The translations under genes were made by a program, and so were the position numbers. From assembly GCF_026210795.1 (NCBI RefSeq), contig NC_089451.1, positions 3,394,001 through 3,458,000 on the forward strand: a stretch of 64,000 bases of DNA. Reading direction: 5' to 3'. The notes under the pieces are model-generated. The model saw only the letters and a list, made by a program, of their open reading frames with translations, did no database searches and had not been told where the DNA came from. The first letter of the stretch is position 1, and every line of letters starts with the position of its first letter. This DNA is from Rhizophagus irregularis. Taxonomy: Eukaryota > Glomeromycota > Glomeromycetes > Glomerales > Glomeraceae. This document shows positions 264 through 43,445 of this stretch, in pieces.

Positions 264-3200
264 TCCCTATATTATTAAATGATTTTTTAAATAAAGAATT
301 TAGTTAGTTTAAATTATTTGCAAATATTATATAAAGATAGTGGCCAAAATTATCTGAACACTTAAAATTATGCAGATCATGTTAATGTGATATAAAAAAC
401 GTATAATTTTGTATTAATAATAATAATAAACAAATTTCTACTATATTTTAATTACTTATGTCATTTCAGAATTCTTTTGGAAATATGAATCCAATTAATG
501 CATAAATTTTACAATTTATATAACAAAAAATATAAAATAATTAAATTACTATAACTCAGTGTCTCAGTTAATATCAATCAGAATATTATAAATTTACCAC
601 CATTTGGATCATCTTATTGAGATGAATTTAATTTATGAAAATCTAATTACCAGAGCAAAATATATCTAAACAATTTAAAGTGCTAAATATTAATCTCCCA
701 AAAAATTCAGTTATTATCATTTGAATCCTTTCAGTGAGATAGATGCATGAATCTAAAATCATAAAAAACAATCACTAGATCGAAAAATATACAATAAATG
801 TCCAGGTAATTTTGGCTTTTCTCTGTAAATAAGTAATAAATTATTAATAAAATTAAATAAATAATTTATAATTTACCAGCAGAAGTAGCCAATGCTTTTT
901 TAAATGAAAGAATTCAGTTAATAAATAAATATTATGTAAATAAGTAATAATAGAATTAAATAAATAACTTACATACTATATTATTTAATAATTTTTAAAT
1001 AAAGAAATTAATTAGTTTAATTATATATAAGTATTATATAAATAAGTAATAATAGAATTAAATAATAATTTACCTTCTATATTATTTAATTTTTTAAATA
1101 AAAAATTTAGTTTGAATTATAAATAAGTATTATATAAATAAGCAATAATAGAATTTAATAAATAACTTATAACTTACTATCTATTAAATAAAAAATTTAG
1201 TTAGTTTAAATATTATATAAATAAATAATAACAAAATTAAATAAATGACAATAACTTGTAATTTACCAACAAATATAGCTAAAATAAATTAAAAAATAAT
1301 TTTTAAATAGAGAATTTAATCAATTAAATTATATGCAAATATTATATAAATTAGCAACAATAAAATTAATAGTTTGTAACTTACAAACTAAATAAATTAC
1401 AAAATAATTTTTTAAATAAAGAATTATGTTAATATAAATAAGTAATAATTAAATAAATAACTTACTGCCTAAATTATTAAATAATTTTTTTTAATTTAAA
1501 TTGTATATAAATATTATATAAATCAGTAATAATAAAATTAAATTAAATAACTTACCCACTATATTATTAAATAATTGTTAGTTTAAATTATATATAAATA
1601 TTATATAAATAAATAAAAACAAATAACGATAAATTGTAATTTACCAGCAAAAATAACTAAAATAAATTAAAAAATAATTTTTAAATAGAGAATTTAATTA
1701 ATTTAAATTATATGAATAAATTAGTAACAATAAAATTAAAATTACAAGATAATTTTTTAAATAAAGAATTAAGTTAGTTTAAATTATACATAAATACTAT
1801 TATAAATAAATAAAAACAAAATTAAATAAAACTTGTAATTTACCAGCTAAAATAACTAAAATAAATCAGAAATAATTTTTAAATAGAGAATTTAATTAAT
1901 TTAAATTATATGATGTATAAATTACTAGTAACCATAAAATTAAATAAATAGCTTATAACTTACAAACTAAATAGAATTACAAAATAATTTTTTAAATAAA
2001 GAATTTGGTTAGTTTAAATTACATGTAAATATTATGTAAATATGTAATAAATAACTTACTGCCTAAATTATTAAATAATTTTTTAAATAGACTTTTTAAT
2101 TTAAAATGTATATAAATATTATATAAAGTCAAAGCTCGTTATAGTGAACCCTCATTTTCGTTCACTATAACGAATATTCACAAACATGAAAGATTTCTTT
2201 ATAGTAAACCTTAGTATATTAATACAATAAAAAGTTTCTTTTAACAAAAGTATTTAATTTTGATTTTAAAGCCTTAAGAATTTCCAATTCTGTGTTATCT
2301 AATAATAGTTCTATTGGCATTTCATAGTATGATCTTGTAAATTTAATTCCTTATACAAATAATATTAATAATAGAGTGAAATTCTAATCCTAATTTTTGT
2401 GTTTAAAGTGATTTGTGAACAATATACCTAATGATTTCACGTGATATTTACTATAACGAATATAAATTTATAATATACGTTCTATATAAAATTTTTAAAA
2501 AGTTTACTATATCTAATATCGAGACTTTATTAGTAAGTTTACTATAATGAATAAGATTTATTAGTAAGTGAACTGGGGGAATAAAAAAGTTCACTATAAG
2601 CCAAATTTACTATAACGAGCTTCACTATAACGAGCGTTGACTGTAAATCAGTAATAATAAAATTAAATAATAACTTACACACTATATTATTAAATAATTA
2701 GTTAGTTTAAATTATATATAAATATTATATAGATAAATAATAACAAAATTAAATAAATAAAAATAACTTGTAATTTACCAGCAAAAATAACTAAAATAAA
2801 TTAAAAAAATTTTTAAATAGAGAATATAATTAATTTAAATTATATGTATAAATTAGTAACAATAAAATTAAATAAATAGCTTATAACTTACAAACTATTT
2901 TAAATAAAGAATTTAGTCAGTTTTAATAAATTATATGTAAATATTATATAAATAAGTAATAAAAAGAATTAAATAAATAACTTACATACTATATTATTAA
3001 ATAGTTTATTAAATAAAAAATTTAGTTAGTCTAAATTATATATAAATATTATATAAATAAGTTAATAATAGAATTAAATAAATAACTTACATGCTATATT
3101 ATTAAATGGTATATTAAATAAAGAATTTAGTAATTTAGTTAATTTAAATTATATGCAAATATTAAATAAATCAGTAATAATAAAATTAAATAAATGACTT

Positions 3201-6200
3201 ACAAACTATATTATTGAATAATTAATTGATTTAAATTATTTGTAAATATTATATGAATAAATAACAATAGAATTAAATAAATAACTTACATGCTATATTA
3301 TTAAATAGTATATTAAATAAAGAATTTAGTAATTTAGTTAGTTTAAATTATATGTAAATATTATATAAATCAGTAATAATAAAATTAAATAAATAACTTA
3401 CAAACTATATTATTAAATAATTAATTAATTTAAATTATTTGTAAATATTATATGAATAAATAATAATAGAATTAAATAAATAACTTACTCCCTATATTAA
3501 TAAATTAAAGAATTTAGTTATTTTAAATTATATATAAATAAGTAATAATAAAATTAAAAAAACATACGTCCTATATTATTAAATGATTTTTTAAATAAAA
3601 AATTTAGTTAGTTTAAATTATATGCAATTATTACTGATGTAAGTAAGTAATAATAGAATTAAATAAATAACATACCCTCTACATTATAAAATAATTTTTA
3701 AAAGAATTTAGTTATTAGTTTAGATTATATGTAAATATTATATAAATAAGTAATAATAGAATTAAATAAATAACTTATAACTTACGATCTATTAAATAAA
3801 AATTCAGTTAGTTTAGATTATACTATGCAATTATTACTGATGTAAATAAGTAATAATAAAATTAAATAAATAACTTACTAACTATGTTATTAGATAATTT
3901 TTAAAATAAAAAAACTTAATTAGTTTAAATTATATGTAAATATATTGTATTGTATAAATAAGTAACAATAGAAATATAGAATTAAATAAATAATTTACTC
4001 ACTATATTATTTAAATAATTTTTTAATTAAAGAAATAGTTAGTTTAAATTATATGTAAATATTATATAAATAAGCAATAATAGAATTAAATAAATAACAC
4101 ACCATCTATAAAATAATTTTTTTAAAAGAATTTAGTTAGTTTAAATTATATGTAAATATTATATAAACAAGTAATAATAATGAACTTACTTTCTATATTA
4201 TTAAAATAGTTTTTTAAATAAAGAATTTAATTAGTTTAAATTATATATAAATATTAAATATTAAAATAAGTAATAATAGAATTAAATAAATAACTTACTC
4301 CCTATATTATTTAAATAATTTTTTAAATAAAAAATTTAATTAGTTCAAATTATATGTAAATATTAGTATATATATAAGCAATACTAATGAACTTACTAAC
4401 TAAATAAATTATTTTAAATAAAGAATTTAGTTAGTTTAAATTATATATAAATATTAAAAATTAAAATAAGTAATAATAGAATTAAATAAATAACTTACTC
4501 CCTATATTATTTAAATAATTTTTTAAATAAAGAATTTAATTAGTTCAAATTATATGCAAATATTATATAAATAAGTAATAATAGAATTAAATAAATAACT
4601 TACACCCTATATTATTTAAATAATTTTTTAAATAAAGAATTTAATTAGTTTAAATTAAATGTATATAATATATAAATAAATAACTTACTCCCTATATTAT
4701 TAAATAATTTTTTAAATAAAGAATTTAATTAGTTTAAATTATATGTAAATATTATGTAATAAGTAATAATAGTATAAATAAATAACTTATAAACTTACGA
4801 TCTATTAAATAAAGAATTTAATTAGTTTAAATTATTTGTAAATATTATATAATAAGTAAAGTACTAAATAAATAACTTACCCCCTATATTATTAAAGAAT
4901 TATTTAAATAATGATTGGATTAGTTCAAATTATATGTAAATATTATATATAAAATTAAATAAATAATTTATAACTTACGATCTATTAAATAAAAAATTTA
5001 GTTTGTAATTATTATATAAATAAGTAATAATAAAATTGAATAAATTATTTATAACTTACGATCTATTAAATAAAGAATTTAGTTAATTTAAATTATATGT
5101 AAATATTATATAAATAAATAATAATAGAATCAAATAAATAATTTATAACTTACGATCTATTAAATAAAGAATAATTAGTTTAAATTATATGTAAATATTA
5201 TATAATAAGTAATAATAGAATTAAATAAATAACTTACCTCCTATATTATTAAATAATTTTTTAAATAAAGAATTTAGTTAGTTAAATTAATAATAGAATT
5301 AATAAATAACATACCATCTAAAAAATAATTTTTTAAATAAATAATTCAGTTAGTTTATATTATATGTAAATATTATAAAAATAAGTAAGAATCGAATTAA
5401 ATAAATAACTTATAACTTACGATCTATTAATAAAAAATTTAGTTAATTTAAATAAAGTAATAAAATATAGAATTAAATAAATAACTTATGATAACTTACC
5501 AACTAAAATAAATTGTAAAAATTTTTAAATTAAAAATTTAGTTAGTTTAAATTATGTAAATATTATATAAAAAATAAATCTAATTGTAACAACTTATATG
5601 CTCTTATTTGTAATAACTAACATTAGAATTATGAGACCTGCAGTAAAAATTTTCTTTTTGGAATTAAAGTTATATAATTTCATAAATAGTAATTTTCGAA
5701 AGTAGGAAAAAATATTGTGGAACAAGTATTACCAAAAAAAAGGGGATGAAGTAAACAAAGTAATATTATAAAAATATAGTAAAAATATTTGTCATACCTC
5801 CACTTTTCATTTTTATTAAGTGTTTTGAAGACTTGGAATTTTGGTTAGTAAAATCTTATTTATTTGCCATATGTAATACCATAATATTGGTTAAAACTGC
5901 TCCATTTTAAATGACCTCCCAAAAAGAAAATTCTAAGTTATACACAAAGTCTGAATATGGTAATTTTAATATTCTAGCAGAAATTATAAAATAATTAGAA
6001 TATAATGAATAATATGAATAATATGTAATAAATAGAATTTTCAGTATGAAAAAAATTCATCCTTAGGATACATAGTAAAAATAAAAAGAAAGGAGAGTAT
6101 AATATGGGTTACAAATAGGTTGTTACAAATAAGTTGTGTAATAAGTTGTTACAAATACATTTATTCTTATAAATAAGTAATAATAGAATAAATAAATAAC

Positions 6201-7034
6201 TTATAACTTACGATCTATTAAATTAAAATTTAGTTAATTTAAATATTATATAAATAAGTAATGATGGAATTAAATACATAACTTATAACTTACCAACTAA
6301 AATGAATTACAAAATAATTTTTTAAATAAAGAATTTAGTTAGCTTAAAACTAGTTAAATAATAGAAATATAAATATCGTATAACTTACACCCTGTAGTAT
6401 TATTAATTATTAATTAGTTAGATGTAGATAGAATCTAAAGTATTTACTGTAAATTAAATATGTTACTTACAATCTAATTATTTAAATTAAGAATAATATA
6501 TAATTAGTTGAATTATATAAAATATTAGACAAATAAGTATATTGTAGCCTACCATCTATAATATAATTAATTATTAAATAATTAGAATTTAGTTATCTGA
6601 ATTAATTATATAGTAAAGAACTAAAGATTTTAATAACTGGTAACTTACTAACTACAGTATTATTAATTATTAATGAATTATTTATTAGTTATATGGAATA
6701 TAACAAAAATAATAAGTAATATAGTGATTATTTAATTATAAGACAACTTATTAACTTACGAGCTAAATTATTTAATATAATTTTGTATAATATAGTTAGT
6801 TTAAATTATACTTGTATATTATAAGATATAATTATAGTTAGAATTTAAACATTTTTATAAATAAGATTTAATATTTCAGTTTGTTTAATATACCTTCAGA
6901 TTCCTTAGTACTGCTTTCTTCAAATTCCTCAATTTCAAATTCTTCAGAGCTGTCTAGTTTGTTATATTGCACATTTTAAAATTCTAATTATATTAAATGT
7001 TTATATTACATATATGATTATTACCATGAGCCAT
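264..7034 (-). CDS. micro-exon gene 1 (paralog of the kinase gene at 31664-43445), 3' end outside window
   Basis: Minus-strand gene recognised by homology to the gene at 31664-43445. Exon 1a is 7025-7034 (ATG plus 7 nt). A 71-nt intron (6954-7024, GT..AG) follows, then exon 1b at 6894-6953, which reads in frame through an acidic stretch ending EEFEESSTKES, nearly the same as the paralog. The donor at 6887-6893 is GTATATT in phase 1. From there to the left edge there are 50 tiny exons, each preceded by TAG and followed by GTAAGTT-like donors. Joined in phase 1 they contain no stop, whereas phases 0 and 2 do. Residues at the start of the array (N-D-W-F) resemble the paralog (D-D-W-Y). The C-terminal domain is not in the window; a kinase is expected by analogy only. 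Intactness cannot be judged from this part. Confidence 0.6.
332..826. mobile_element. MITE, Tc1/mariner type, inside an intron of array 1
   Basis: Terminal inverted repeats: left GGCCAAAATTATCTGAACA (342-360) pairs with right TGTCCAGGTAATTTTGGC (799-816). The right end extends to CTCTG followed by TA. The interior has no coding capacity. It interrupts the ~100-bp periodicity between the micro-exons at 264 and 877 without touching either. The TA target duplication is likely but the left end is eroded. Confidence 0.6.
2125..2643. mobile_element. MITE with GCTCGTTATAGTGA inverted ends, inside array 1
   Basis: The left end AGTCAAAGCTCGTTATAGTG (2127-2146) is the inverted complement of the right end CACTATAACGAGCGTTGACT. 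The motif TTCACTATAACGA recurs internally. It is flanked by TA, as for pogo/Tigger-type Tc1/mariner MITEs. It lies wholly in the intron between micro-exons 2060 and 2679. Confidence 0.65.
5573..6167. mobile_element. MITE with TTGTAACA inverted ends (same family as 41049-41350)
   Basis: The left end AATCTAATTGTAACAACTTA and the right end, read inverted, ATGTATTTGTAACAACTTA form terminal inverted repeats. Extra copies of GTTACAAATA sit near the right end. The related element in array 2 is inserted in the opposite orientation. It lies between micro-exons 5500 and 6212. Confidence 0.55.
6894..7034 (-). CDS. exons 1a and 1b of micro-exon gene 1
   Basis: The start at 7034 is the ATG GCT that aligns with the ATG GCT at 43445 in the paralog. 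Continuous reading from this ATG hits TAA after 13 codons. Splicing 7024-6954 (GTAATAATC to ACAAACTAG) gives an open acidic frame rich in Glu and Ser. Total coding length of 1a+1b is 70 nt, phase 1 at its end, the same phase as the 118-nt first exon of the paralog. About 110 bp upstream is also shared with the paralog. The short first intron is inferred from frame, not proven. Confidence 0.5.
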
Positions 7035-19702: not shown

Positions 19703-20746
19703 TTATCTAATTTTGGTTGGCGAAGTTCTCAGCCACGTGATAAACTTACCGCACTCTGCTTCTATCAGGTCAAGAGGATCATTGGCTGGAATCCCTACAC
19801 TTAATCGTTCGAATAACCAGAGAGCCGTTCTTTTGTAAGACCAGTTATGGTATGATAAGTCGATTCCTAAACCGAACTTCTTTGTCTCCTGTAGAAAGGA
19901 ATTCCACTCCTCGTAGATTCTCTGATATGCTTCTTCAAGAGTTTCATATACTCCAGTCTTACGGTTCTTCTCAACAGAGATAAAGGAACTCTTGGAATTC
20001 TTAGTTTTTTGAAACTGCCCAATTGTACAAGACTTAACCGTTTTGCCATTATATATTGTGACTATATTATTTACTCCATCTTCATGATACACAATGGGTA
20101 GATTACGCTTCCTATCTAATTTACTGGGATGGAGTCTTCCGGGATTTAACGCGAGGGAGTAGTGACCCTCAGACAGAATGAGAGTCGCATGTCTATCGAA
20201 CTTACTCTTAGAGATTCGGGTAATATCCCCCACGATATTAAGTGCGAGACTTCCTGCGAGTTGTTCGATCTTGTCTATGCATGAAACTGGGATGGGAGCA
20301 TCACGATTGAGACCTAATGCCTTTTTGATATACTCGGGTTTTTCGACTGACTTTGGCATTTTAGAGAATATGCCGTAAATATTTTTTAGGCATTCATACA
20401 GGCAATCATTTAGCTCCCCATTGCATCCTCCTGTGGTCAGTGGACTATCTCTCGCATAAATTATAAATTGTTCAAAATAATCGGGGTCTGCGTCATCTGG
20501 TAGTTGTGCTTCATCATAATGGTCTAATAATGAAAAGAGGCTGGCTGGTTGGTTTCCTGATGTCCATCCACTGGGTTTCCAGTTTTCATAGGGAAGTAGA
20601 ATCTGGAACTTTCTATCTGGAAATCGTGCCTGGAGAGTCTGACCGAGTCTGATGATAGCTCCTCTGGAAAAGCAGGCACTGGAATACTGAAGTTCCTTGA
20701 TGTCAGGTCGTGTTGGTAAAGTGCGAGCGATTCTTGAGTATTGCAT
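19703..20746 (-). CDS. 347-aa ORF of unknown function, possible cysteine-protease-like fold
   Basis: Intact ORF from ATG 20746 in a GC-richer island. Around residues 106-120 it reads GGCNGELNDCLYECL and at 184-197 DRHATLILSEGHYS. The Asn-Asp-Cys and later His arrangement recalls OTU-like or related papain-fold proteases found in some mobile-element and viral polyproteins, but this is only motif-level inference. No signal peptide or membrane segment. The last dozen residues follow a GTAAGT and lie at the GC/AT boundary, so the true end may differ. It is co-oriented with and 82 bp downstream of the small ORF that follows the helicase gene, suggesting one element. Confidence 0.5.
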   Translation of the reverse strand: MQYSRIARTLPTRPDIKELQYSSACFSRGAIIRLGQTLQARFPDRKFQILLPYENWKPSGWTSGNQPASLFSLLDHYDEAQLPDDADPDYFEQFIIYARDSPLTTGGCNGELNDCLYECLKNIYGIFSKMPKSVEKPEYIKKALGLNRDAPIPVSCIDKIEQLAGSLALNIVGDITRISKSKFDRHATLILSEGHYSLALNPGRLHPSKLDRKRNLPIVYHEDGVNNIVTIYNGKTVKSCTIGQFQKTKNSKSSFISVEKNRKTGVYETLEEAYQRIYEEWNSFLQETKKFGLGIDLSYHNWSYKRTALWLFERLSVGIPANDPLDLIEAECGKFITWLRTSPTKIR

Positions 20747-20828
20747 TTTTATGTATATGATTTGTTTTCAACTATAAATAATATGTTTCTATATATATAC
20801 GAAAAAAAGAAATAATCTCAAATAGCGC

Positions 20829-20972: not shown

Positions 20973-23345
20973 AGTTTCATACCCAGAGGGGTGGGAATAA
21001 TCTCGGCATTACGATTCTCCTTGTATGCTCTTATTAAATCCACGAGTTCTTTACGGCTAGGTGTTTTAGGTAAGTTCCCATTATATTCAATCCAGTCCTT
21101 GAAGCGGTCTACTACTTCTTTAAGGTAGTACTGGTACTTGTCTTCAATACGCGTTGTGGGACATTCCTCTACTTCAAACGTGAGTATTTCCCAGTCATAG
21201 TCATCTGACGCGTCTTGATACTTGGCCCATAATTCCTTACCTATATTGTAGAGATCATTGAAGACCTGGTCCTTTGAATTCTTGACCCATGGCTTACAAT
21301 CCCATCAGCACCTTTCATGCCAAGCCCAGTGTGCTCGAGTACCTTTCTTTGGTTCAGGGTCCCGGTCAACTTCTAGTTCTATATCAGGTTCTGGGATAAG
21401 TTGTTCAGAAGATGATTCTACTATAGGTTCTGTAGAAGATTTGGAATCTGCGAGGGATTCAGATTTTGTGGAAGATTCTGCAGGTGACTCAGGTTGTTGC
21501 TCAAGAACTGGGTCCACGGTTGTAGAATCTGAGTCTGATAACAATTCGTCTAAGACATCGTAATCATCTGGCTCGGGGGCAGATGGTTTTTCAGAAACTG
21601 GGTCTGCGGTTGTAGAATCCGAATCTGATAACAAGTCGTCTAAGACGTCATAGTTATCTGGCTCGGGGTAGACAGTTTTTCTTCCCTTAACTCTTGTAGA
21701 CGTTCTTTTAAGTGATCAGGCTTAGGTGGAAGCAGTGGAGGAGTCCTTTTGGAAACCGGTTGCTCTTCGATAACAGGTTTGGGTTTTTCCTCAGCGGGTT
21801 TTTCCTCAGCAGGTTTCTCTTGTACATTTTGTGAATTGTTAGCTGGATTATATATATTTGCCAAGAACTTATCCAAGGCATTGGGGTCTGATGCGGGTTT
21901 CTCAGGAGTATCTATATCAATTCCTTCTATATCAATTTCATCTGTTTCATGTATCCAGTTTTTGCCAAGAAACTTCTTGTATAGATCCTCCCTGGATATA
22001 CTGTAAACTTGTGGTGTTGTTTTACCTATACGCATTTTTTTACTTTTTATACTTAGCTCATTTGATAGGATTCTGGATGCATTGATCTTTGATAGGGGTG
22101 AAATGCAATGAGTTTCACAGTATGAAGTATATACCCTATAAAATTCTTGAACAGGTAGGTCGGTTATATGATTTTTCACTACGAGGTATGTATCCTTTAT
22201 AAACTGAAATAGGGGTGGAAAAGTCGAGATGATATGTTCCTATTTGGATGTTGTCATAGGTGGCAGATTTCCATTGAAGTCCAGGTAAGCATCCGCGATG
22301 GCTCTCAAATAAGCATAGAATGCCTCACTGGCGCCTGGGTATTTCATAGCGTCACTGAGTTTTTTGAAGTAGTTGAGGTCTCCCTTGCGGGTTGGTGACA
22401 CATCCAAGAACACTGTGCGCCTATTATCATTCTCCACTCTGAGAGCATTTTCGTTGGTTAAAACGATAGTGGACATAAAGTTTTTATAATGTGTTGGTGT
22501 CTTGTATTTTTCATGGATTTCCATTATATCACTCGTTACCTTATCCTTTAAAGAGTGATACAGATTATTCCACTGGCTTTTTTCCGTGAGCATTTCCTCA
22601 AGAAGAAGAAGAACCTTACCCTGTAATTGCCCATTGAAACTTCCAAGAATCGTCTGAGGATCGCTGGTCTTATAAACGAGTTGAGTGCCTAGGACACTGC
22701 GCTGAATAAATCTGTTATAATACCTTTGCCCCAACCCTGTCCAGATTTCAGGTAAAAGATCGAGTACATCTTCCTTCCAGCAGATACACTGGCCAACCAC
22801 TTGATGATATACTCAGTAAGATTCCAATCACCCGAACACCAGATATCCTGAATATGAGAGAAGATAAATTTAACCGCGAGGTGAATTGTAGACTCAAAGG
22901 TGGATATCGGACATAAAACGTGGAGGAATCCCGGGAAGATATTTAGATAGAGTTGGCCAGTTAAGGATCTGAAGATTCACTGTTTATAGGGATCACAGGT
23001 TGCATTACATACATCGGTATTCTCGACTATAAACCACTTGTAGATTTTGAACTCGGTCTTTTGAGAGGGTCCTTGTTCAGGTTGTGTGTAGAATGCCTTC
23101 GTGATTGGACAGATAAGTTTACCAATATTTTTGTCAATAACGTGTTTCAAACTTTTACTATCTGGGTCCCACCAGAAAACCCCATGATGATCTGCACAGG
23201 GAATGAAATAACTGCAAAGATACCTCTTGGCTTGATTGAGGTCACTCATACTCTTTACAGCGACAATAAGCTGTTTAAGCTCATCGATACTGAAGGCTTT
23301 CTTTTGTTCACCGAACTTGGGGATAACTTGAGCTTGAGTAGCCAT
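20969..23345 (-). pseudogene. SF3 helicase / D5-like replication protein (DUF5906-like), disrupted
   Basis: Colinear protein segments from ATG 23345. A divergent N-terminal ~120 residues is followed by the HIQDIWCSGDWNLTEYIIKW block typical of plasmid/virus-type D5/DUF5906 helicases. The P-loop GQGWGKG is at 22722-22742, a Walker B-like VLLLLEEM at about 22590-22616, and sensor STIVLTNENALR with NN-RR at about 22440-22470. A winged-helix-like tail (VQEFYRVYTSYC, about 22150) and a long Pro/Glu/Asp/Ser-rich linker with repeated DDYDVLDELLSDSDSTT come next, then a 110-codon C-terminal region ending at 20969. Such proteins unwind DNA at the origin of a self-replicating element. Lesions: TGA at 22977-22979; one-base frameshift just after the P-loop (about 22712); TAG at 22240-22242; frameshift in an A run at 21674-21680; TGA at 21305-21307. 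No primase/polymerase domain was recognised. Base composition is much less AT-rich than all neighbours. Confidence 0.75.
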
Positions 23346-31663: not shown

Positions 31664-31794
31664 CTAATGTTTAATTATATAATCATTCAAATCTTCACTT
31701 ACTAGCATTTCATTTACTTTTACACTAGCTTGTGAACCTTCACTTTCAAGAACTTCACTCAAGTTTTCACTAGTATTTTCATCTGCTTTAATAT
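31664..31794 (-). CDS. last exon of the kinase gene
   Basis: Acceptor TTAATTAG at 31795; the frame continues from K2 in phase 1. It encodes a Glu/Ser-rich tail ending DLNDYIIKH before TAG at 31664. This end resembles the end of K2 (DNYMIKDLKSL), so the tail exon may be a duplicate of the previous exon end, another sign of exon-intron unit duplication in this gene. Confidence 0.6.
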
Positions 31795-34700
31795 CTAATT
31801 AATTAATTAAATAAATTATTTCATGTAAATAATTTTCAAGATTAAATTTTATATGTATTATTGCATACCTACCTAATGACTTTAAATCTTTAATCATATA
31901 ATTATCCAAATTTTCAGTTTCAAGAATTTCATTCAATTTTTTACTAGTGAAATCAAGTACGCGACTTGTATAACATGCTTTAGGATGAGATTTAGTAGCT
32001 AGATTATTACGCCCAATTGGTGCATTTATAAATTCCATAATGTTGCTTTTTACTTCTTTACTGACTCGAAAAGGACGGAAAATCCATTTCTTAATAACTT
32101 CTTCCACTTCTGATGTAGATAGCCTTTTTAATGGATCTTCATTCCAACATTTTTTCATTAAATCTACATAGCATTGTGGAGTATTTTCAATAATTTCAGG
32201 ACGTTCACCTTTACAAATACTTAAACTAAGTTGAATATCATGTGCTCTATTATTAAATGGTGGTACTCCGGATGTAAGTTCCCACATAATCATAGAAAAA
32301 CTATATATATCACTAGCTGGAGTATAAGATTTGCCTCTTAAAACTTCAGGTGCCATAAATGGTATAACACCATAAATATCATACTTTTTCAAAAATGATT
32401 TTACAGGTTGGCATAATCCTAAATCACTAATATAAATTTTAATATCACCATACTCATCATTATGATTTAAAATATTACCATCATGAAAATCACAATGAAT
32501 AAGATTTTTTTCATGTATATTACTAAGTCCAGAAATAATTTCGTACAACATATGTAATTTTGTATTCCAATGATTTTTAACTATTGTTGTTAAATTTTCT
32601 CTTAAATTACCTTCATTTGCATAATCCATTACTACCATATATTTTGAAGTATTTGGATCTTTTGTAAATCCATAAAAATCAATAATATTATCTGAACCTA
32701 AACACTCTTTATGATATTCCCACTATAAAAAATAATAATAATTCATTAATATAAATAAGTTATAATTTAAATTAAAATTAAAAATAGAAATAAATATACT
32801 ATCATACTTCTTTTAAAAATTCATTCAAATTTTCACTTAAATTCTTGTGACATTTAAGAATTGCTTTTTCATCTCCATTATTATTTAACCAGATAGCTTT
32901 GTATATAGTACCAAATCCTCCTTCATTAACATATCTAACATTTTCAAATTTATTATAAGGAATCCATTTAAGTCCATTTTTAAGAATAAAATCATCTAAA
33001 TTTGCATTTCCACTTTTTCCGAATCTATAAATTTAAATAATAAAATTATATTATAGTTTACATAGAATTTTACACTAAAAATTAAATTTTTAATTAGCAC
33101 TTACTCTAAAATTCAAATAGAAATTTGATATGATATAAATTTTAGATTGGATAAATATATATAATAATAACCTATAATTCACAACTTACCAACTAAAGGA
33201 ATGGGTATTTATTTAAATAAAAGAATCCAGTTAGTAACAAATAAATAATATATAAAATATAACAATAGAAAACACAAATAACTTAATAACTTACAAGCTA
33301 TATAATGAAATAATTTTTTAAATAAAGAATTTAATTAGTTTAAATTATATGTAAATATTATACAAATAAATAATAATAGAAATAAATAACTTACGAACTA
33401 TATTATTAAATAATATTTTTTAAATAAAAATTTAGTTAGTTTAAATTATATGTAAATATTATAATAATCGAATTAAATAAAAAACTTACTCCCTATAATA
33501 TTAAATAATTTTTTAAATAAAGAATTTAGTTAGTTTAAATTATATGTAAATATTATATAAATAAGTAACAATAGAATTAAATAAATAACTTACGAACTAT
33601 ATTATAAATAATTTTTTAAATAAAAAAATTAGTTAATTTTAATTATATGTAAATATTATATAACTAAGTAACAATAGAATTAAATAAATAACTTACGAAC
33701 TATATTATTAAATAATTTTTAAATTACATGTAAATATTATATAAATAAGTAATAATCAAATTCAATAAATAACTTATAACTTACGTTCTATTTAAATAAA
33801 GAATTTAGTTAGTTTAAATTGTATGAAATATTATATAACTAAGTAATAATACTTACTCTCTATATTATTAAATAATTTTTTAAGTAAAGAATTTAGTTAG
33901 TTTAAATTATATGCAAATATTATATAAATAAGTGATAATATAACTTACCTACTATATTATTAAAATATTTTTTTAAATAAAAAATTTAGTCAGTTTAAAT
34001 TATATGAAAAATATTATATAAATAAGTAATAATAGAATTAAATAAACTTACTCCCTATATTATTAAATAATTTTTTAAATAAAAAAATTTGTCAGTTTAA
34101 ATTATATGTAAATATTATATAAACTAGGTAACGGGATCCGTTGAAGTACTCGTTTAAAATCACACGTCAGGCGCGTCACTGAAAATCTGATCACGCGGAT
34201 CACGTGATAATAATCAATAATAACATCTTATTGGTTAATCACGCGTGCGGACAGACATACCTTGCATTACAATGTGTCTAACCGTTAATGTCCTCCGCTA
34301 CACCTCAGACAATAAGTAATAATAGAATTAAATAAATAACTTACTCTCTATATTATTAAATAATTTTTTAAATAAAGAATTTAATTAGTTTAAATTATAA
34401 GTAAATATATATAAATAAGTAATAATAGAGTTAAATAAATAACTTACTCCCTATATTATTAAATAATTTTTTTAAATAAAGAATTTAGTTAGTTTAAATC
34501 ATATGAAAATATTATATAAATAAGTAATAATAGAATTAAATAAATAACTTACTCCCTATATTATTAAATAATTTTTTAAATAAAGAATTTAGTTAGTTTA
34601 AATTATATGTAAATATTGTATAAATAAGTAATAATAGAATTAAATAAATAACTTATAACTTACGTTCTATAAATAAAGTATTTAGTTAGTTTAAATTATG

Positions 34701-37700
34701 TGTAAATATTAAATAAATAAGTGATAATAGAATTAAATAAATAACTTACTCCCTATATTATTAAATAATTTTTAAATAAAGAATTTAATTAGTTTAAATT
34801 ATATGTAATATTATATATAGAATAACAGAATTAAATAAATAACTTATATCTTACGTTCTATTTAATAAAAAATTTAGTTAGTTTAAATTATATGTAAATA
34901 TTATATAAATAAGTAATAGTAAATTAAATAAATAACTTATAACATACGTTCTATTTAAATAAAATATTTAGTTAGTTTAAATTATATTGTAAATATTATA
35001 TAAATAAGTAATAATAGAATTAAATAAATAACTTACTTCCTATATTATTAAATAATTTTTTAAATAAAGAATTTAGTTAGTTCAAATTATATTGCAAATA
35101 TTATATAAATAAGTAATAAATAACTTACTCCCTACATTATTAAATGATTTTTTAAATAAAGAATTTAATTAGTTAATTAGTTTAAATTATATGTAAATAA
35201 TATATAAATAAGTAATAATAGAATTAAATAAATAATTTATAACTTACCAACTAAAATAATTACAAAATAATTTTTTAAATAAAGAATTTAGTTAGTTTAA
35301 ATCATATGTAAATATTATGTAAACAGTAATAATAGAATTAAATAAGTAACTTACTTCCTATATTATTAAATAATTTTTTAGATAAAGAATTTATTCAATT
35401 TAAATTATATGTAAATATTATATAAATAAGTAATAATAGAATTAAATAAATAACTTATAACTTACGTTCTATTTAAAAAAAGAATTTAGTTAGTTTAAGT
35501 TATATGTAAATATTATACAAATAAGTAATAATAGTATCAAATAAATAACTAATGCCTTACCAACTAAAATAAATTACAAAATAATTTTTTAAATAAAGAA
35601 TTTAGTTAGTTTAAATCATACTATGTAAATATTAGATAAATAAATAATTTATAACTTACGTTCTATTTAAATAAAGAATTTAATTAATTTAAATTATAAT
35701 ATTATATAAATAAGTAAGAATAGAATTAAATAAATAACTTACTCTCTATATTATTAAATAATTTTTTAAATAAAAAATTTAGTTAGTTTAAATTAAATAA
35801 ATTATATGTAAATATTATATAGGTAAATAACTTATAACTTACGTTCTATTTAAATAAAGAATTTAATTAGTTTAAATTATATGTAAATATGATATAAACA
35901 AGTAATAATAATAACATAACTTACTAACTAAAATAAATTTTTTAAATAACAAATTTAGTTAGATTAAATTATATGTAAATATTATATTAATAAATAACTT
36001 ATAACTTACGTTCTATTTAAATAAAGAATTTAATTAATGTAAATTATATGCAAATATTATATAAATAAGTAATGATAGATTTAAATAAATAACTTATAAC
36101 TTGCGTTCTATTTAAATAAAGAATTTAATTAGTGTAAATTATATGTAAATATTATATAAATAAGTAATAATAAAATTAAATAAATGACTTATAGTAACTT
36201 ACGAGCTATAATTTTTAAAAAAAATTTAATTAATTTAAATTATATGTAAATATTATATAAATAAGTAATACAGTCAAACCTTCATATAACGATATGTTGG
36301 GACATATATGAAATTTTTAGGAAATATCGTTATATCAAAGTTATACCGATATTTATATGTCCTCACATATAGTCAGAAAATAAAATTTTATCGGTATATC
36401 AAGTTTTTAATAGTATATCGGTATATCGAATATCGGTATATCAAGGTTAGACTGTAATAGAATTGAATAAATAACTTACAATCTATATTATTAAACGATT
36501 TTTTAAATAAAGAATTTAGTTAGTTTAAATTATAATGTATGTAACTATTATATAAATAACTAAGTAATAATAATAAATAATTAATTATGCCTTACCAACT
36601 AAGATAAATTACAAAATATTTTTTAAATAAAGAATTTAGTTAGTTTAAATTATATGAAATATTATATAAATAAGTAATAATAGAATTAAATAAATAACTT
36701 ACGTTCTATTTAAATAAAGAATTTAATTAATTTAAATTATATGTAAATATTATATAAATAATATCAAATAAATAACTTATCCCTTACCAACTAAAATAAA
36801 TTACAAAATAATTTTTTAAATAAAAAAATTAGTTAATTTATAAATAAGTAATGAATAGAATTGAATAAAAACTTACTCTCTATATTAAATAATTTTTTAA
36901 ATAAAGAATTTAGTTAGTTTAAATTATATAAAAATATTATATAAATAAGTAATAATAGAATTAAATAAATAACTTACGAACTATATTATTAAATAATTTT
37001 TTAAATAAAGAATTTAGTTAGTTTAAATTACAGTATATGAAATATTATATAAATAAGTAATAATAGAATTAAATAAATAACTTAATGACTTACCAGCTAA
37101 AATAAATTATTAAATATTTTTTAAATAAAGAATTTAGTTAGTTTAAATTATATGAAAATATTATATAAATAAGCAATAATAGAATTAAATAAATAACTCT
37201 TAACTTACGTCCTATTCAAGTAAAGAATTTAGTAAATTTAAATTATATGTAAATATTATATAAATAAGTAGTAATTAAATAAATAACTTAATGACTTACC
37301 AGCTAAAATAATTATTAAATAATTTTTTAAATAAAGAATTTAATAAGTTTAAATTATATGAAAATATTATATAAATAAGTAATAATAGAATTAAATAAAT
37401 AAATTATGCCTTACTAACTAAGATAAATTACAAAATATTTTTTAAATAAAAAATTTAGTTAGTTTAAATTATATGAAAATATTATATAAATAAGTAATAA
37501 TAGAATTAAATAAATAATTTATAACTTACATTCTATTTAAATAAAGAATTTAGTTAGTTTAAATTATATGTAAATATTATATAAATAAGTAATGATAGTA
37601 TCAAATAAATAACTTACGAACTATATTATTAAATAATTTTTTAAATAAAGAATTTAGTTAGTGTAAATTATATGAAAATATTATATAAATAAGTAATAAT

Positions 37701-40700
37701 AGAATTAAATAAATAATTTATAACTTACATTCTATTTAAATAAAGAATTTAGTTAGTTTAAATTATATATAAATATTATATAAATGAGTAATAATAGTAT
37801 CAAATAAATAACATACCCCCTATATTATTAAATAATTTTTTAAATAAAAAATTTAATTAGTTTAAATTATATGAAAATATTATATAAATAAGTAATAATA
37901 GAATTAAATAAATAACTCATAACTTACGTCCTATTCAAGTAAAGAATTTAGTAAATTTAAATTATATGTAAATATTATATAAATAAGTAATAATTAAATA
38001 AATAACCTAATGACTTACCAGCTAAAATAAATTATTAAATAATTTTTTAAATAAAGAATTTAATTAGTTTAAACTATATGAAATTATTATATAAATAAGT
38101 AATAATAGAATTAAATAAATAAATTATGCCTTACCAACTAAGATAAATTACAAAATATTTTTTAAATAAAGAATTTAGTTAGTTTAAATTATATGAAAAT
38201 ATTATATAAATAAGTAATAATAGAATTAAATAGATAATCTATAACTTACATTCTATTCAAATAAAGAATTTAGTTAGTTTTAATTATATGTAAATATTAT
38301 ATAAATAAGTAATAATAGTATCAAATAAATAACTTACGAACTATATTATTAAATAATTTTTTAAATAAAGAATTTAGTTAGTGTAAATTATATGAAAATA
38401 TTATATAAATAAGTAATGATAGAATTAAATAAATAATTTATAACTTACATTCTATTTAAATAAAGAATTTAGTTAGTTTAAATTATATGTAAATATTATA
38501 TAAATGAGTAATAATAGTATCAAATAAATAACTTACGAACTATTATTAAATAATTTTTTAATTAAAGAATTTAGTTAGTTTAAATTATATGTAAATATTA
38601 TATAAATAAGTAATAATAGTATCAAATAAATAACTTACAAACTATATTATTAAATAATTTTTTAAATAAAGAATTTAGTTAGTGTAAATTATATGAAAAT
38701 ATTATATAAATAAGTAATGATAGAATTAAATAAATAATTTATAACTTACATTCTATTTAAATAAAGAATTTAGTTAGTTTAAATTATATGTAAATATTAT
38801 ATAAATGAGTAATAATAGTAACAAATAAATAACTTACGAACTATTATTAAATAATTTTTTAAATAAAGAATTTAGTTAGTTTAAATTATATGTAAATATT
38901 ATATAAATAAGTAATAATAGTATCAAATAAATAACTTACAAACTATATTATTAAATAATTTTTTAAATAAAGAATTTAGTTAGTTTAAATTATATGAAAA
39001 TATTATATAAATAAGTATTAATAGAATTAAATAAATAACTCATAACTTACGTTCTATTTAAGTAAAGAATTTAGTTAGTTTAAATTATATGTAAATATTA
39101 TATAAATAAGTAATAATAGAATTAAATAAATAACTTACGAACTATATTATTAAATAATTTTTTAAATAAAGAATTTAGTTAGTTTAAATTATATGTAAAT
39201 ATTATATAAATAAGTAATAATAGTATCAAATAAATAACTCATAACTTACGTTCTATTTAAGTGAATAATTTAGTTAGTTTAAATTATGTAAATATTATAT
39301 AATAAGTAATAGTAGAATTTAATAAATAACTCATAACTTACGTTCTATTCAAGTAAAGAATTTAGTAAATTTAAATTATATGTAAATATTATATAAATAA
39401 GTAATAATTAAATAAATAACTTAATGACTTACCAGCTAAAATAAATTATTAAATAATTTTTTAAATAAAGAATTTAATTAGTTTAAATTATATATAAATA
39501 TTATATAAATAAGTAATAATAGGATTAAATAAATAACTAAATGACTTACCAGCTAAAATAAATTATTAAATAATTTTTTAAATAAAGAATTTAGTTAGTT
39601 TAGATTATATATAAATATTATATAAATAAGTAATAATAGAATAAATAAATAATTTATAACTTACATTCTATTTAAAAAAAGAATTTAACAAGTTTAAATT
39701 ATATGAAAATATTATATAAATAAGTAATAATAGAATTAAATAAATAACTCATAACTTACGTTCTATTTAAGTAAAGAATTTAGTAAATTTAAATTATATG
39801 TAAATATTATAAATAAGTAATAATAGAATTAAATAAATAACTCATAACTTACGTTCTATTTAAGTGAAGAATTTAGTTAGTTTAAATTATATGAAAATAT
39901 TATATAAATAAGTAATAATAGAATTAAATAAATAACTTACGAACTATATTATTAAATAATTTTTTAAATAAAGAATTTAGTTAGTTTAAATTATATGAAA
40001 ATATTATATAAATAAGTAATGATAGAATTAAATAAATAACTTACAAACTATATTATTAAATAATTTTTTAAATAAAGAATTTAGTTAGTTTAAATTATAT
40101 GTAAATATTATATAAATAAGTAATAATAGAATTAAATAAATAACTCATAACTTACATTCTATTCAAGTAAAGAATTTAGTAAATATAAATTATGTAAATA
40201 TTATATAAATAAGTAATAATAGAATTAAATTAACTTCTTACCTTCTATATTATTAAATAATTTTTTAAATAAAGAATTTAGTTAGTTTAAATTATATGAA
40301 AATATTATATAAATAAGTAATAATAGAATTAAATAAATAACTTAATGACTTACCAGCTAAAATAAATTATTAAATAATTTTTTAAATAAAGAATTTAGTT
40401 AGTTTAAATTATATGAAAATATTATATAAATAAGTAATAATAGAATTAAATAAATAACTAATAACTTACGTTCTATTTAAGTAAAGAATTTAGTTAGTTT
40501 AAATTATATGAAAATATTATATAAATAAGTAAGAATAGAATTAAATAAATAACTTACTCCCTATATTATTAAATAATTTTTTAAATAAAGAATTTAGTTA
40601 GTTTAAATTATATGAAAATATTATATAAATAAGTAATAATAGAATTAAATAAATAACTTACTCCCTATATTATTAAATAATTTTTTAAATAAAGAATTTA

Positions 40701-43445
40701 GTTAGTTTAAATTATATATAAATATTAAATAAATAAATAATAATAGAATTAAATAAATAATTTATAACTTACATTCTATTTAAATAAAGAATTTAATAAG
40801 TTTAAATTATATGTAAATATTATATAAATAAGTAATAATAGAATTAAATAAATAACTTAATGACTTACCAGCTAAAATAAATTATAAAATAATTTTTATA
40901 TAAAGAATTTAGTTAGTTTAAATTATATGTAAATATTATATAAATAGAATTAAATAAATAACTTACTTCCTAGATTATTAAACAATTTTTTAAATAAAGA
41001 ATTTAGTTAGTTTAAATTATATATTAATATTATATAAATACTAAGTAATGAATAAATGTATTTGTAACAGCCTGTTACATAATAAATTTAGTATGTGTTT
41101 TACAAATAAAATTTTTATATGCAAAATTTAATTTGGAAAACTTTTACTTAATGTACTTAAGACAGTTTCATAAACAAAATTTTAAGTTATAAGCAGTTTC
41201 TTCAAATTTTTTAAAAAATTCTTTTGTCTTAATTACACAACTGATCTTTTGTTTTTGTTTACATTATGCCTGATCTTAAATTTAATTGGATAAAATTGGG
41301 AGTTGTTACAAATAAGATATGTAACAGGCTTTTACAATTAGATTTATCCTAACTTACGATCTAAAATAAATCAAATAAATTACAAATTACAAAATAATTT
41401 TTTAAATAAGGAATATAATTAGTTTAAATTATATGTAAATATTATATAATAAATAATATAGAATTAAATAAATAACTTACTTCCTAGATTATTAAATAAT
41501 TTTTAAATAAAGAATTTAATTAGTTTAAATTACATGTAAATATTATATAAATAAATAATTTATAACTTACGTTCTATATAAGTAAAAAATTTAGTTAGTT
41601 TAAATTATATGTAAATATTATATAAATATGTAATGATAATTATAAAATTGCTATAAATTGCCATCATCAGAGTCATGTGATTTTAATGATATATAATTTG
41701 TCATCCCATGTCACCCTCCTTGTTTTCGTTTTTTACAGACAATTTTTTTAGTATGAAAAATCCTATTTCCCCTATAATTTCAGCCAAATTTTATAATTCT
41801 GACTAAAATTTCCTTTTGTGAAAACTTAAATAACATTATACAATAAAAAGGTAATTTTATTTCTCATAAAAATGGGAAATGAATTACACAATATTCAAAA
41901 AAGGCAATTTCTATATCAATCATTTAATTCTGGCTAAAATTAAAAAATCACATAACACTAATAATGACGATAATTAAATAAAATAATTTATAACCTACCA
42001 TCTAAAATAAATTACAAATTACAAAATAATTTTTAAATAAAGAATTTAGTTAGTTTAAATTATATGTAAATATTATATACATAAGTAACTTACTCCCTAT
42101 ATTATTAAATAAGTTTTAAATAAAGAATTTAGTTAGTTTAAATTATATGTAAATATTATATAAATAAGTAATAATAGAATTAAATAAATAACTTACGAAC
42201 TATATTATTAAATAATTTTTTAAATAAAAAATTTAGTTAGTTTAAATTATATGTAAATATATATAAATAAGTAATAATAGAATTAAATTAACTTCTTACC
42301 TTCTATATTATTAAATAATTTTTTAAATAAAGAATTTAGTTAGTTTAAATTATATGTAAATATTATATAAATAAGTAATAATAGAATTAAATAAATAACT
42401 TACGAACTATATTATTAAATAATTTTTTAAATAAAGAATTTAGTTAGTTTAAATTATATGTAAATATTATATAAATAAGTAATAATAGAATTAAATAAAT
42501 AACTTACGAACTATATTATTAAATAATTTTTTAAATAAAAATTTAGTTAGTTTAAATTATATGTAAATATATATAAATAAGTAATAATAGAATTAAATAA
42601 ATAACTTACAAACTATAATATTAAATAATTTTTTAAATAAAAAATTCAGTTAATTTAAATTATATGTAAATATTATATAAATAAGTAATTAAATAAATAA
42701 CTTACTCCCTATATTATTAAATAATTTTTTAAATAAAGAATTCAGTTAGGTTAGTTTAAATTATATGTAAATATTGTATATATATATATATAATATGACT
42801 TACCATCTAAAATAAATTACAAATTACAAAATAATTTTTTAAATAAAGAATTTAGTTAGTTTAAATTAAATAAATAATAGAAATATAAATGTAACTTACA
42901 CCCTATATATTATTAATTTTAATTAGTTAGATATGACATAATATAAAATATTTACTGTAAATTAAATATATTACTTACAGTCTAGTTATATTTTAAGAAT
43001 ATAATTAGTTAAGTTATATAAGATATTAAGCAAATAAAATAATATATATTGTAGCTTACCATCTGTAATATAATCAATTATTAAATAGTTGTTTAAGATT
43101 TTAGTTATTCAAATATTATGCAAAATAAATAAAGTAAAAAACTAAAGATTTAAATAACTGATACCTTACCAACTATAGTATTATTAATTATTAAATAAAT
43201 TATTTAATGTGATTTTTGTATTATATAGAAAATTATATTTGTATATTATTACATAAGATATAATTATAGATGGTATTTAAATGCATTTACAAATAAAGAT
43301 TTAATATTTCAACTTTGTTTAATATACCTTTTTTAGATTCCTTAGTACTACTTTCTTCAAATTTCTCTTTGAATTCTTTAATACTACTTTTTATTTTATT
43401 GAGAATTTGTTTAAAAATATTACCTTTATTATTATTATAAGCCAT
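31664..43445 (-). CDS. protein kinase with 91 three-nucleotide exons and a one-nucleotide exon
   Basis: Predicted structure: exon 1 at 43328-43445 (39 codons + 1 nt, ATG GCT start); 91 micro-exons of 3 nt between 43172 and 33190; a 1-nt exon at 33105; kinase exons 32808-33024, 31873-32722 and 31664-31794. Sum 1590 nt, 529 aa. Residues about 40-131 come one codon at a time from the array. They are rich in Gln and Phe in the middle and Arg/Lys in the last third. The kinase domain has a glycine loop GGFGTIYKA (166-174), Lys188 in AILK, catalytic HCDFHDGN (279-286), DLG (303-305, not DFG) and APE (327-329), as in expanded tyrosine-kinase-like families of these fungi. No stop occurs in the joined frame, whereas direct joining of exon 1 to the kinase exon would be out of phase. 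It is likely a cytoplasmic signalling Ser/Thr-Tyr-like kinase. Splicing of the array is prediction from sequence and needs RNA evidence. Confidence 0.7.
31873..32722 (-). CDS. kinase exon K2 (hinge, C-lobe)
   Basis: Starts with WEYHKECLGSDNIIDFYGF, then MVVMDYANEGNL (hinge). Then IHCDFHDGNIL (catalytic loop), ISDLGLC (metal-binding loop), FMAPEVLRGK, SDIYSFSMIMWEL and the RP box. Ends in ENLDNYMIKDLKSL with donor GTAGGT, phase 1. Reading past this donor gives a stop at 31799, the unspliced alternative end. Confidence 0.85.
32808..33024 (-). CDS. kinase exon K1 (N-lobe)
   Basis: Acceptor ATAG at 33025-33028; begins with the third base of a codon, then F-G-K-S-G. Contains the glycine-rich loop NEGGFGTIYKA and the lysine of AILKC. 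Donor GTATGAT at 32801-32807, phase 0. It is joined to K2 through an 85-nt intron (32723-32807). Confidence 0.8.
33105..33105 (-). CDS. predicted one-nucleotide exon (A)
   Basis: The minus strand reads GAATTTTAG, A, GTAAGTGCTAA. The single base lies between a good acceptor and a consensus donor, 84 nt after micro-exon 33190 and 80 nt before the kinase exon. The array arrives in phase 1 and the kinase exon opens in phase 2, so exactly one extra base is required, and no other AG near 33025 gives the right phase. A one-base exon has a precedent in Arabidopsis APC11. Confidence 0.5.
34124..34310. mobile_element. 187-bp GC-richer insertion in array 2
   Basis: Breaks the periodic array between micro-exons 34052 and 34345. 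It contains TCACGTGA (34200-34207) and several CACGCG words. No clear inverted ends. Intronic position, both neighbouring exons intact. Confidence 0.5.
36271..36454. mobile_element. 184-bp MITE, TA target duplication
   Basis: Left end CAGTCAAACCTTCATATAAC and right end, read inverted, CAGTCTAACCTTGATATACC. Flanked on both sides by TA. Interior rich in TATCGGTATATC. Typical Tc1/mariner MITE, sitting within the intron between micro-exons 36203 and 36480. Confidence 0.8.
41049..41350. mobile_element. MITE, same family as 5573-6167
   Basis: Left TTGTAACAGCCTGTTACAT (41062) and right, read inverted, TTGTAAAAGCCTGTTACAT. The extended ends AATAAATGTA/ATAAATCTAA are shared with the array 1 copy in opposite orientation. 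It abuts the donor of micro-exon 41358. Confidence 0.65.
41640..41960. mobile_element. unclassified insertion in array 2
   Basis: About 320 bp of non-array sequence between micro-exons 41571 and 41999. Weak direct similarity of GATAATTA at both edges. No coding capacity and no clear inverted ends. Confidence 0.4.
43328..43445 (-). CDS. first exon of the micro-exon kinase gene
   Basis: ATG at 43445; 39 codons beginning MAYNNNKGNIFKQILNKIKS, then Glu/Lys/Ser-rich to ESSTKESKK plus one G, followed by donor GTATATT. It ends in phase 1. Lysine-rich amphipathic start, no signal peptide. Homologous to exon 1b (6894-6953) at its end. Continuing through the donor meets a stop within about a dozen codons. 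Confidence 0.65.

Follow-up and report, generated by a model that had tools for sequence, protein, structure and literature searches.

Tandem three-nucleotide exons predicted to encode the linker of a protein kinase gene family in Rhizophagus irregularis

Rhizophagus irregularis very probably carries a family of protein kinase genes in which the linker that connects a conserved Glu/Ser-rich head to the kinase domain, as read from the DNA, is encoded by tandem three-nucleotide (nt) exons (micro-exons) in phase 1, with a one-nt exon that sets the frame of the kinase. Each array unit would consist of a U2-type intron of ~96 nt (GTAAGT ... branch point ... TAG) and one 3-nt exon. Each codon would combine the final base of a micro-exon with the two opening bases of the following one, and the terminal one-nt exon would restore the frame for the kinase. 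Stop codons are avoided between nearest neighbours and in one direction, thus the micro-exons appear to be joined in order and translated. The analysis demonstrates this architecture and its conservation, and also that selection acts on the joined product.

One gene will be used to show the arrangement. It lies in the window (the whole stretch of 64,000 nt that was analysed, positions 3,394,001 to 3,458,000 of contig NC_089451.1), and its features are listed in Table 1. The DP parse recovered the 91 consecutive 3-nt exons that a sequence-only reading had proposed on the minus strand; as a sequence structure the array is confirmed and is far above chance. The proposed frame also holds: exon 1 ends in phase 1, and 91 x 3 nt together with the one-nt exon lead to phase 2, in which the kinase exon opens. 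The joined product (exon 1, micro-exons, one-nt exon and kinase exons) is an open frame of 529 residues. It displays the Pfam domain PK_Tyr_Ser-Thr (PF07714) at residues 161–411 (E = 1e-40, 140.2 bits against a cut-off of 23.1) and scores 133.7 bits with PF00069 (cut-off 31.7). The parse gives the same distribution of stops as had been reported: none in phase 1, one in phase 0 (a TAG micro-exon at 33951-33949) and many in phase 2. Predicted tryptic peptides of the linker include EFQFTGPVQIELDSQQLK and KPEEFFQQQSAEQLQLFQFFQFQFAGR. A paralogue of exon 1 is found at C24:2843147-2843257 (65% identity, E = 2e-8), and it also ends in phase 1 (NK/G gtatat). The heads MAYNNNKGN... and MGQCIGK... show no signal peptide by eye.

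Table 1. Positions of predicted features of the two array genes in the window
Feature	Position	Strand	Description
Exon 1	43328..43445	-	118 nt, MAYNNNKGN...TKESKK; phase 1 at end, then GTATAT
Array, 91 three-nt exons	33190..43172	-	DP parse; phase 1 without stops
One-nt exon A	33105..33105	-	TTTTAG/A/GTAAGT; shifts phase 1 to phase 2
Kinase exon 1	32808..33024	-	opens in phase 2; FGKSGNANLDDFILKNGLKWIPYNKFENVRYVNEGGFGTIYKA...; domain by Pfam
Kinase exon 2	31873..32722	-	HCDFHDGN, DLGLC, APEV
Final coding exon, C-terminal tail	31664..31794	-	ends with TAG at 31664
Second array gene, end of exon 1	6894..6957	-	..SSEEFEIEEFEESSTKESE/G gtatat
Second array	264..6762	-	45 three-nt exons within the window, continues to its left end

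The period of ~100 bp described earlier fits 86 of the 90 introns in the first array (69–120 nt) but not the other four, which are 274, 290, 388 and 425 nt long. The donors are GTAAGT (77), GTAAGG (6), GTAAGA (3), GTATGT (2), and GTAAGC, GTAGGT and GCAAGT (1 each). A CTAAC box had been ascribed to each intron, which is too strong; a perfect CTAAC is present in 59/90 and CTRAY in 75/90. The consensus of U2-type GT-AG introns comprises a GTAAGT-like donor, a YAG acceptor and, ahead of the acceptor, a CTRAY-like branch point. The array introns of the family conform to it in donor, acceptor and branch point (1,177 of 1,256 junctions, introns of 53–136 nt): the donor is GTAAGT in 1,053, the acceptor is TAG or CAG in 1,167, and a branch-point motif is present in 935 (CTAAC in 608, CTGAC or CTAAT in 327). 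Base-shuffled control introns display CTAAC in only 33 cases. Where CTAAC is present, the median distance from the branch A to the acceptor is 38 nt. Introns longer than 140 nt occur at 79 of the 1,256 junctions and may conceal unparsed units; two such gaps were inspected.

A genome search with TAGNNNGTAAGTT yielded 4,842 matches, against 541 for a reversed-pattern control, and the places listed are clustered. Thirty-five arrays were parsed, all from this one genome, with 1,291 micro-exons and 1,256 junctions. Extrapolated to the whole genome, there may be an estimated ~165 arrays and ~6,100 three-nt exons. The spacing k between AG and GTAAGT inside the 35 arrays (0–30 counted) is 3 in 1,148 cases, 1 in 30, 6 in 8 and 12 in 2, with 0–3 cases for each other value. 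Array size varies from 8 to 91 units among related genes whose heads and tails are similar. A terminal one-nt exon, A every time, is present in 33/35; the two arrays lacking it (the second array of the window and L024) both reach the end of the sequence analysed. Exon 1 was found in 23/35 arrays (not in 12) and ends in phase 1 in all 23. The script itself assigned phase 1 in 21 of these; in the window gene and L009 it chose a later false donor, and both are in phase 1 at GTATAT. The script located the start of the kinase exon downstream of the one-nt exon in 31/35 arrays. For the second array of the window, a candidate kinase exon is a match at C23:3382656-3382811, on the same strand and ~18 kb from the array start. 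A common head, [DN]-W-[FWY], is present among the first eight phase-1 residues in 29/35 arrays. The gene family, the shared head and the family-wide terminal one-nt exon were outside the view of the sequence-only reading.

Each phase-1 codon straddles an intron, so a micro-exon that ends in T followed by one that starts with AA, AG or GA makes a stop codon created only by splicing. In the first array of the window 16 micro-exons end in T and none is followed by such a start, although 37/91 micro-exons start that way; this recount agrees with the earlier one, which had been graded as only indicative. Across the 35 arrays the count becomes decisive, with 1/318 stops against 57.5 expected (Fisher p = 1.9e-31), and it supports the proposal of a kinase gene in which ~92 residues would be assembled singly in phase 1. 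Leaving out the first array of the window gives 1/303 against 49.4 expected (p = 1e-26). The arrays are a related, non-random sample, thus p-values overstate independence, and the most conservative test is that on distinct pair types (1/98 stops against 22.6 expected, p = 4e-12). All 1,256 junctions together have 3 stops, against 50.4 +/- 5.5 when the exon order is shuffled (lowest value 33 in 2,000 shuffles). Among 33 testable codon cells the three stops are the most depleted, i.e. T/AA 0 against 18.9 expected, T/GA 0 against 7.0 and T/AG 1 against 31.6, and the next-lowest cell is at 0.50.

As parsed, 32/35 arrays are free of stops in phase 1. Two of the three stops span gaps that contain weaker units, and including those units removes the stop; by this post hoc step 34/35 would be stop-free. 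The third, ATT/AGA in L053, remains and counts against the phase-1 reading. Phase 2 is rejected as a reading, with 192 stops, above the shuffled mean of 151.

No significant stop avoidance is found in the 35 arrays at lags 2–8 or in reversed exon order. This bears on a reading in which the array is a combinatorial device, where varied skipping of micro-exons would yield very many linker variants per gene. The frame survives any skip, the published models P0063 and P0011 take 18/43 and 29/36 of their units, and six of seven lags between 2 and 8 are slightly under expectation. Common functional skips should, however, give strong avoidance at lag 2 like that at lag 1, and this is absent (41 stops against 50.1 expected, p = 0.06). 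Frequent functional skipping is rejected on that count, and the combinatorial reading as a whole is considered unlikely. Because lag-2 stops lack strong avoidance, in-order inclusion looks like the norm, perhaps with skipping at a low level.

The exon bases appear to evolve faster than the introns. Mutual-nearest pairs of units with no more than 10 differences in 120 flanking bases (127/237 pairs) differ at 61 exon bases, where the flank rate predicts 9.4. An exon/flank ratio near 20, obtained when nearest neighbours were chosen on the same flanks, was discarded as the product of a biased choice of pairs. When pairs are picked by their distal flanks alone, the differences per site are 0.008–0.021 in proximal flanks and 0.088–0.167 in exon bases, a ratio of 7.7–10.8. 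Pairs picked by a single side yield a ratio of 1.0–1.4, perhaps as a result of indels that break the ungapped comparison. The exon bases are likely hypervariable, and either diversifying selection or homogenisation of introns would fit. Neighbouring units are identical in 137 cases, which is no excess over shuffled arrays (125.9 +/- 10.5), thus duplication of single units in tandem is as such unsupported.

The same data were considered for a very unlikely origin, in which an introner-like mobile element would have placed a copy of itself at every codon of an older coding exon and so given rise to the introns. Pairs alike on both sides have like introns and more different exon bases, and identical neighbours show no excess, as such an origin would allow. 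It requires, however, an insertion at each third base with almost no exception, and the range of 8 to 91 units among these related genes, similar in head and tail, agrees with entire units having been gained and lost.

The published gene models examined mostly leave out the array or read pieces of it. P0011, on its own locus, has 29 three-nt exons, and 29/29 coincide with independently parsed units (36 units); it reads them in phase 0, by way of a 23-nt and a 5-nt exon. In P0063 (locus L047) 18/18 three-nt exons fall on parsed units (43 units), in phase 1. P0005 goes from exon 1 straight to the kinase exon, with KESK joined to DDFILEKEL. By eye, P0005 and P0030 have no string of micro-exons, while P0011 has one, and P0121 and P0122 read into the first intron and end there. 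A W-[IF]-P-Y-like motif stands in the first 30 residues of 72 out of 120 published kinases listed, thus 72/120 listed models start at or inside the kinase exon. A search for published proteins with the exon 1 head, with P0005 as the query, retrieved P0005 itself and four others among 203 candidates (E <= 1). A joined query of phase-1 linkers from 13 arrays (L047 is outside these) against 5.8 billion proteins gave none at E <= 10 among 2,205 candidates, in a search restricted to proteins that share 5-residue words with the query and have 0.55–1.75 times its length.

Two further readings are highly improbable. In one, the array is a non-coding satellite in one long intron, its repeat unit produces the splice-like motifs as a side effect, and the kinase either begins downstream or joins exon 1 directly; the units are indeed tandem repeats, and the 72/120 kinase starts and the P0005 junction agree with it. 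A satellite, however, predicts no constraint on the order of units, and it is rejected because stop avoidance depends on exon order, being confined to immediate neighbours, one direction and one phase; the 3-nt spacing throughout, the terminal one-nt exon in 33/35 arrays and the concentration of differences at the three exon bases when both flanks of a pair are alike also argue against it. In the other, splicing of the micro-exons does occur but the reading phase is 0, every micro-exon being a codon of its own, and after the last unit the donor used would lie 4 nt downstream (AGTAA/GTAATA in L034). P0011 maps in this way, as do P0006, P0020 and P0090 by eye, and the head variation CT[CT] and TT[AG] is synonymous in that phase. 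Against this, all 23 arrays with an identified exon 1 have it ending in phase 1, P0011 must use its 23-nt exon to switch phase, the P0063 model is in phase 1, and a gene finder unable to place a one-nt exon would probably be forced into phase 0. The phase 0 reading is rejected since TGA micro-exons are not avoided (5, no rarer than TGT, 4, or TGC, 3), while phase-1 stops are.

The preferred reading is thus the phase-1 linker of tandem 3-nt exons. Splicing would proceed by intron definition. An acceptor and a donor three bases apart could hardly serve two adjacent introns simultaneously, thus removal is probably stepwise, a ratchet resembling recursive splicing that would leave one codon per step. 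The arrays may grow as blocks of intron-exon units are duplicated, with one residue gained per unit, and the outcome would be a fast-changing linker of about 8–91 residues. A wider reading is offered tentatively, and it may well prove wrong: ~165 kinase genes would have a hypervariable segment spliced codon by codon, with units gained and triplets evolving several times faster than the flanking introns, as a recognition or self/non-self surface on which diversifying selection acts and to which somatic skipping adds variants.

The published models examined mostly omit or fragment the array, thus the annotation would largely lack a linker, of as many as ~91 residues, in possibly ~165 kinases. 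The literature covered treats exons of 1–3 nt as rarities, and here the spliceosome would join 91 of them consecutively, at intervals of ~96 nt, in a kinase. This raises questions on the minimum size of an exon, the handling of splice sites three bases apart and the splicing accuracy needed, and it suggests a route for protein evolution in which one intron-exon unit is one added residue.

The earlier statement that no described gene of this kind was known to the reader agrees with the literature covered (no preprints, few subscription papers), in which no micro-exon genes of Rhizophagus or arbuscular mycorrhizal fungi were found either. The micro-exons of schistosomes have lengths that are multiples of three. 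The R. irregularis arrays share this property (k = 3, 6 and 12), with the one-nt exon as the exception. The schistosome micro-exon genes (MEG) are described as having exons of 3–81 bp, introns of up to 5 kbp and secreted products (PMC10526429). The likeness lies in many tiny exons per gene, highly variable proteins and a gene family; unlike the MEG, the R. irregularis genes have 3-nt exons, introns of ~96 nt and a kinase product. Exons no longer than 3 nt are present elsewhere, e.g. a single, alternatively spliced 3-bp micro-exon in Drosophila homothorax (hth) (PMC7392893) and the exons of 1–15 nt in a plant micro-exon database (PMC12409088), and a tandem single-codon array is not mentioned in the passages covered. 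The kinase repertoire of R. irregularis is described as expanded, with 2,533 members (PMC10234402); the kinase domain and the host genome are the same, and micro-exons are not mentioned in the passages covered.

Arabidopsis APC11 has one 1-nt exon (PMC4674806), and the 1-nt exon of Fusarium CYP621A is presented by its authors as the second case overall and the first from a fungal gene (PMC12940212). The exon is required for the frame, as in R. irregularis; there, however, a single 1-nt exon lies in an otherwise ordinary gene, whereas here it is found in 33 related genes, each time after an array of 3-nt exons. Ratchet points of recursive splicing (PMC8605326, PMC5126111) are similar in that an acceptor adjoins a donor and stepwise removal of an intron is possible. 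At ratchet points, however, the acceptor is joined directly to the donor, an arrangement present in 2 cases (k = 0) against 1,148 for k = 3 in the R. irregularis arrays, where one codon would remain at each step.

The window, 64 kb at C23:3394001–3458000, is AT-rich (GC 0.239). A dynamic-programming parse with splice-site matrices places 91 three-nucleotide exons (micro-exons) on the minus strand, between exon 1 and the kinase exons. When joined with these and with a 1-nt exon, they form a single open frame of 529 codons, with a protein kinase domain at residues 161–411 (Pfam PF07714, E = 1e-40). The counts of the sequence-only reading, which had predicted this gene, hold where they were repeated, except that a CTAAC box in each intron was claimed: a perfect box is found in 59 of the 90 introns of the window array.

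Features of the window, in window coordinates
Feature	Position	Strand	Remarks
Exon 1	43445–43328	minus	118 nt
Micro-exon array	43172–33190	minus	91 three-nt exons = 273 nt
1-nt exon	33105	minus	between array and kinase exons
Kinase exons	33024–32808, 32722–31873, 31794–31664	minus	
Second micro-exon array gene	264–6957	minus	45 units within window, reaching left end
ORF	22240–22812	minus	match to DUF5906 (E 8e-14), family of unknown function
ORFs adjoining the DUF5906 ORF	19703–20767, 21640–22239		no Pfam match at E 0.01
57-bp repeat, two arrays	55375–55875, 58845–59292		99% matches; encodes 19-residue repeat; long open frames also in two minus-strand frames

The genome (146,748,485 bases, 32 contigs) was searched for TAGNNNGTAAGTT, which occurs 4,842 times, versus 541 for the reversed pattern; the sites are clustered among the first 100 places listed. 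Loci were chosen, non-randomly, around such clusters and where 2–11 kb separate an exon-1-like match from a kinase-exon match of the same strand (147 matches). Parsing gave 35 arrays, including both in the window, and a total of 1,291 micro-exons. Left unparsed were L010, L017, L018, L019 and L020 (<5 sites on either strand), L055 (901 bases) and the search-derived loci L001–L008, L026–L033 and L056–L057. Scaling by the 910 of 1,291 parsed units that match the pattern gives a rough genome-wide estimate of ~6,100 three-nt exons in ~165 arrays, of which the 35, related arrays from one genome, are a sample.

Reading in phase 1 splits every codon over an intron: its first base closes one micro-exon, and its other two open the following micro-exon, ~96 bases on. 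The decisive test is whether neighbouring micro-exons are coupled, since bases this distant should be linked only if the product is spliced and translated. At the 1,177 junctions with introns of ≤140 nt, a micro-exon ending in T is followed by AA, AG or GA in 1 of 318 cases (57.5 expected; Fisher p = 1.9e-31); after A, C or G the figure is 212/859. With repeats of a pair type removed across the arrays, the figure is 1/98 (22.6 expected, p = 4e-12), and omitting the window's first array gives 1/303 (49.4 expected, p = 1e-26). Shuffles of the order within arrays yield 50.4 ± 5.5 stops (minimum 33 in 2,000). Reversed order shows 49/302 (p = 0.16), and lags 2 to 8 show no significant avoidance (p = 0.06–0.85), six of the seven being slightly under expectation. 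Among the 33 codon cells with an expectation ≥4 the lowest three are TAA (0 vs 18.9 expected), TGA (0 vs 7.0) and TAG (1 vs 31.6); the next-lowest is at 0.50. Across all 1,256 junctions, 79 of them with introns >140 nt, there are three stops, spread over 3 of 35 arrays. Two bridge gaps with weaker unparsed units, whose inclusion removes the stops (a post hoc look, with gap filling confined to these two gaps). The remaining stop is in L053 (ATT followed by AGA).

The arrays have 8 to 91 units (median 33). The spacing from [CT]AG to GTAAGT is 3 in 1,148 cases, 1 in 30, 6 in 8 and 12 in 2, other spacings between 0 and 30 having 0–3 cases apiece. The 1-nt exon is present in 33/35 arrays, always as A; the two arrays without it (the window's second and L024) both extend to the end of the sequence examined. 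A [DN]-W-[FWY] motif is found among the first eight phase-1 residues in 29/35 arrays (exceptions: L014, L015, L021, L023, L024, L025), and the final two micro-exons are CTT-TTG in 19/35. In L034, L040 and L053 the upstream exons begin MGQCI[CG]K, versus MAYNNNKGN in the window gene; the former start resembles an N-myristoylation/palmitoylation signal. Within single array introns, stretches of ~5.1 kb (L009, oriented positions 1430–6480) and ~2.5 kb (L038, 1200–3650) contain no forward units; the parsed units of both loci remain open in phase 1. L013 displays no normal kinase exon continuation after its 1-nt exon (past oriented position 7403), perhaps a disruption; its parsed array is stop-free. 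The window's second array, known as far as the left end of the window, may exceed the 91-unit array in length, as the kinase exon has a match (C23:3382656–3382811) at a distance of ~18 kb from where this second array starts.

Published DAOM 197198 proteins P0002, P0005, P0011, P0037, P0050 and P0051 match genome loci with 100% identity over 42–300 residues. With the whole window protein as query, 1,078 of the 8,000 scored candidates reach E ≤ 0.001; the 120 listed carry the species names R. irregularis, R. diaphanus and R. clarus (top five, 80%–83% identity). A W-[IF]-P-Y-like motif is within the first 30 residues in 72 of these 120, and these models therefore start at or inside the kinase exon; it is further in in 30 and was not found in 18. 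Two of the 120 were mapped by exact spliced alignment, with an aligner whose preference for consensus donors is a bias in favour of units. P0011 on L034 shows exon 1, a 23-nt exon, 29 three-nt exons, a 5-nt exon (AGTAA) and the kinase exon; all 29 are independently parsed units (36 in the array), read in phase 0. P0063 on L047 shows exon 1, 18 three-nt exons, all parsed units (43 in the array) in phase 1, then an acceptor within the kinase exon. Similar by eye only are P0006, P0020 and P0090 (phase 0) and P0069 and P0111 (phase 1). Gene predictors presumably shun the 1-nt exon, which would explain the odd joints in the models. Thirteen phase-1 linkers joined as one query gave no protein match.

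The most similar unit sits one to four positions away for 491 of the 1,291 units, and tandem-repeat periods of ~100, 200 and 300 bases extend across much of the window array. These properties fit growth of arrays by duplication of unit blocks; identical neighbouring units are not in excess (137 vs 125.9 ± 10.5). In 127 mutual-nearest pairs the exon bases show 61 differences versus 9.4 expected. The exon/surroundings ratio is 7.7–10.8 when distal flanks serve to choose the pairs and proximal flanks serve as the comparison, and falls to 1.0–1.4 with pairs chosen on one flank only. The three exon bases likely change faster than their surroundings, which could reflect either selection for diversity or homogenisation of the introns.

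The 1,177 introns are 53–136 nt long (median 96; GC 0.11), with donor GTAAGT in 1,053, acceptor TAG in 1,117, CTAAC in 608 and CTGAC or CTAAT in 327; by sequence they look like ordinary U2-type introns. Stops at lag 2 number 41 versus 50.1 expected (p = 0.06), a weak signal that speaks for full inclusion of micro-exons as the functional norm. Because the exons have only three bases, splice sites would be recognized across the intron. Factor footprints at an acceptor and at the donor three bases downstream would overlap, and for this reason the introns are probably removed stepwise. Such stepwise removal would be like recursive splicing, but the proposed array splicing differs in leaving one codon per step.
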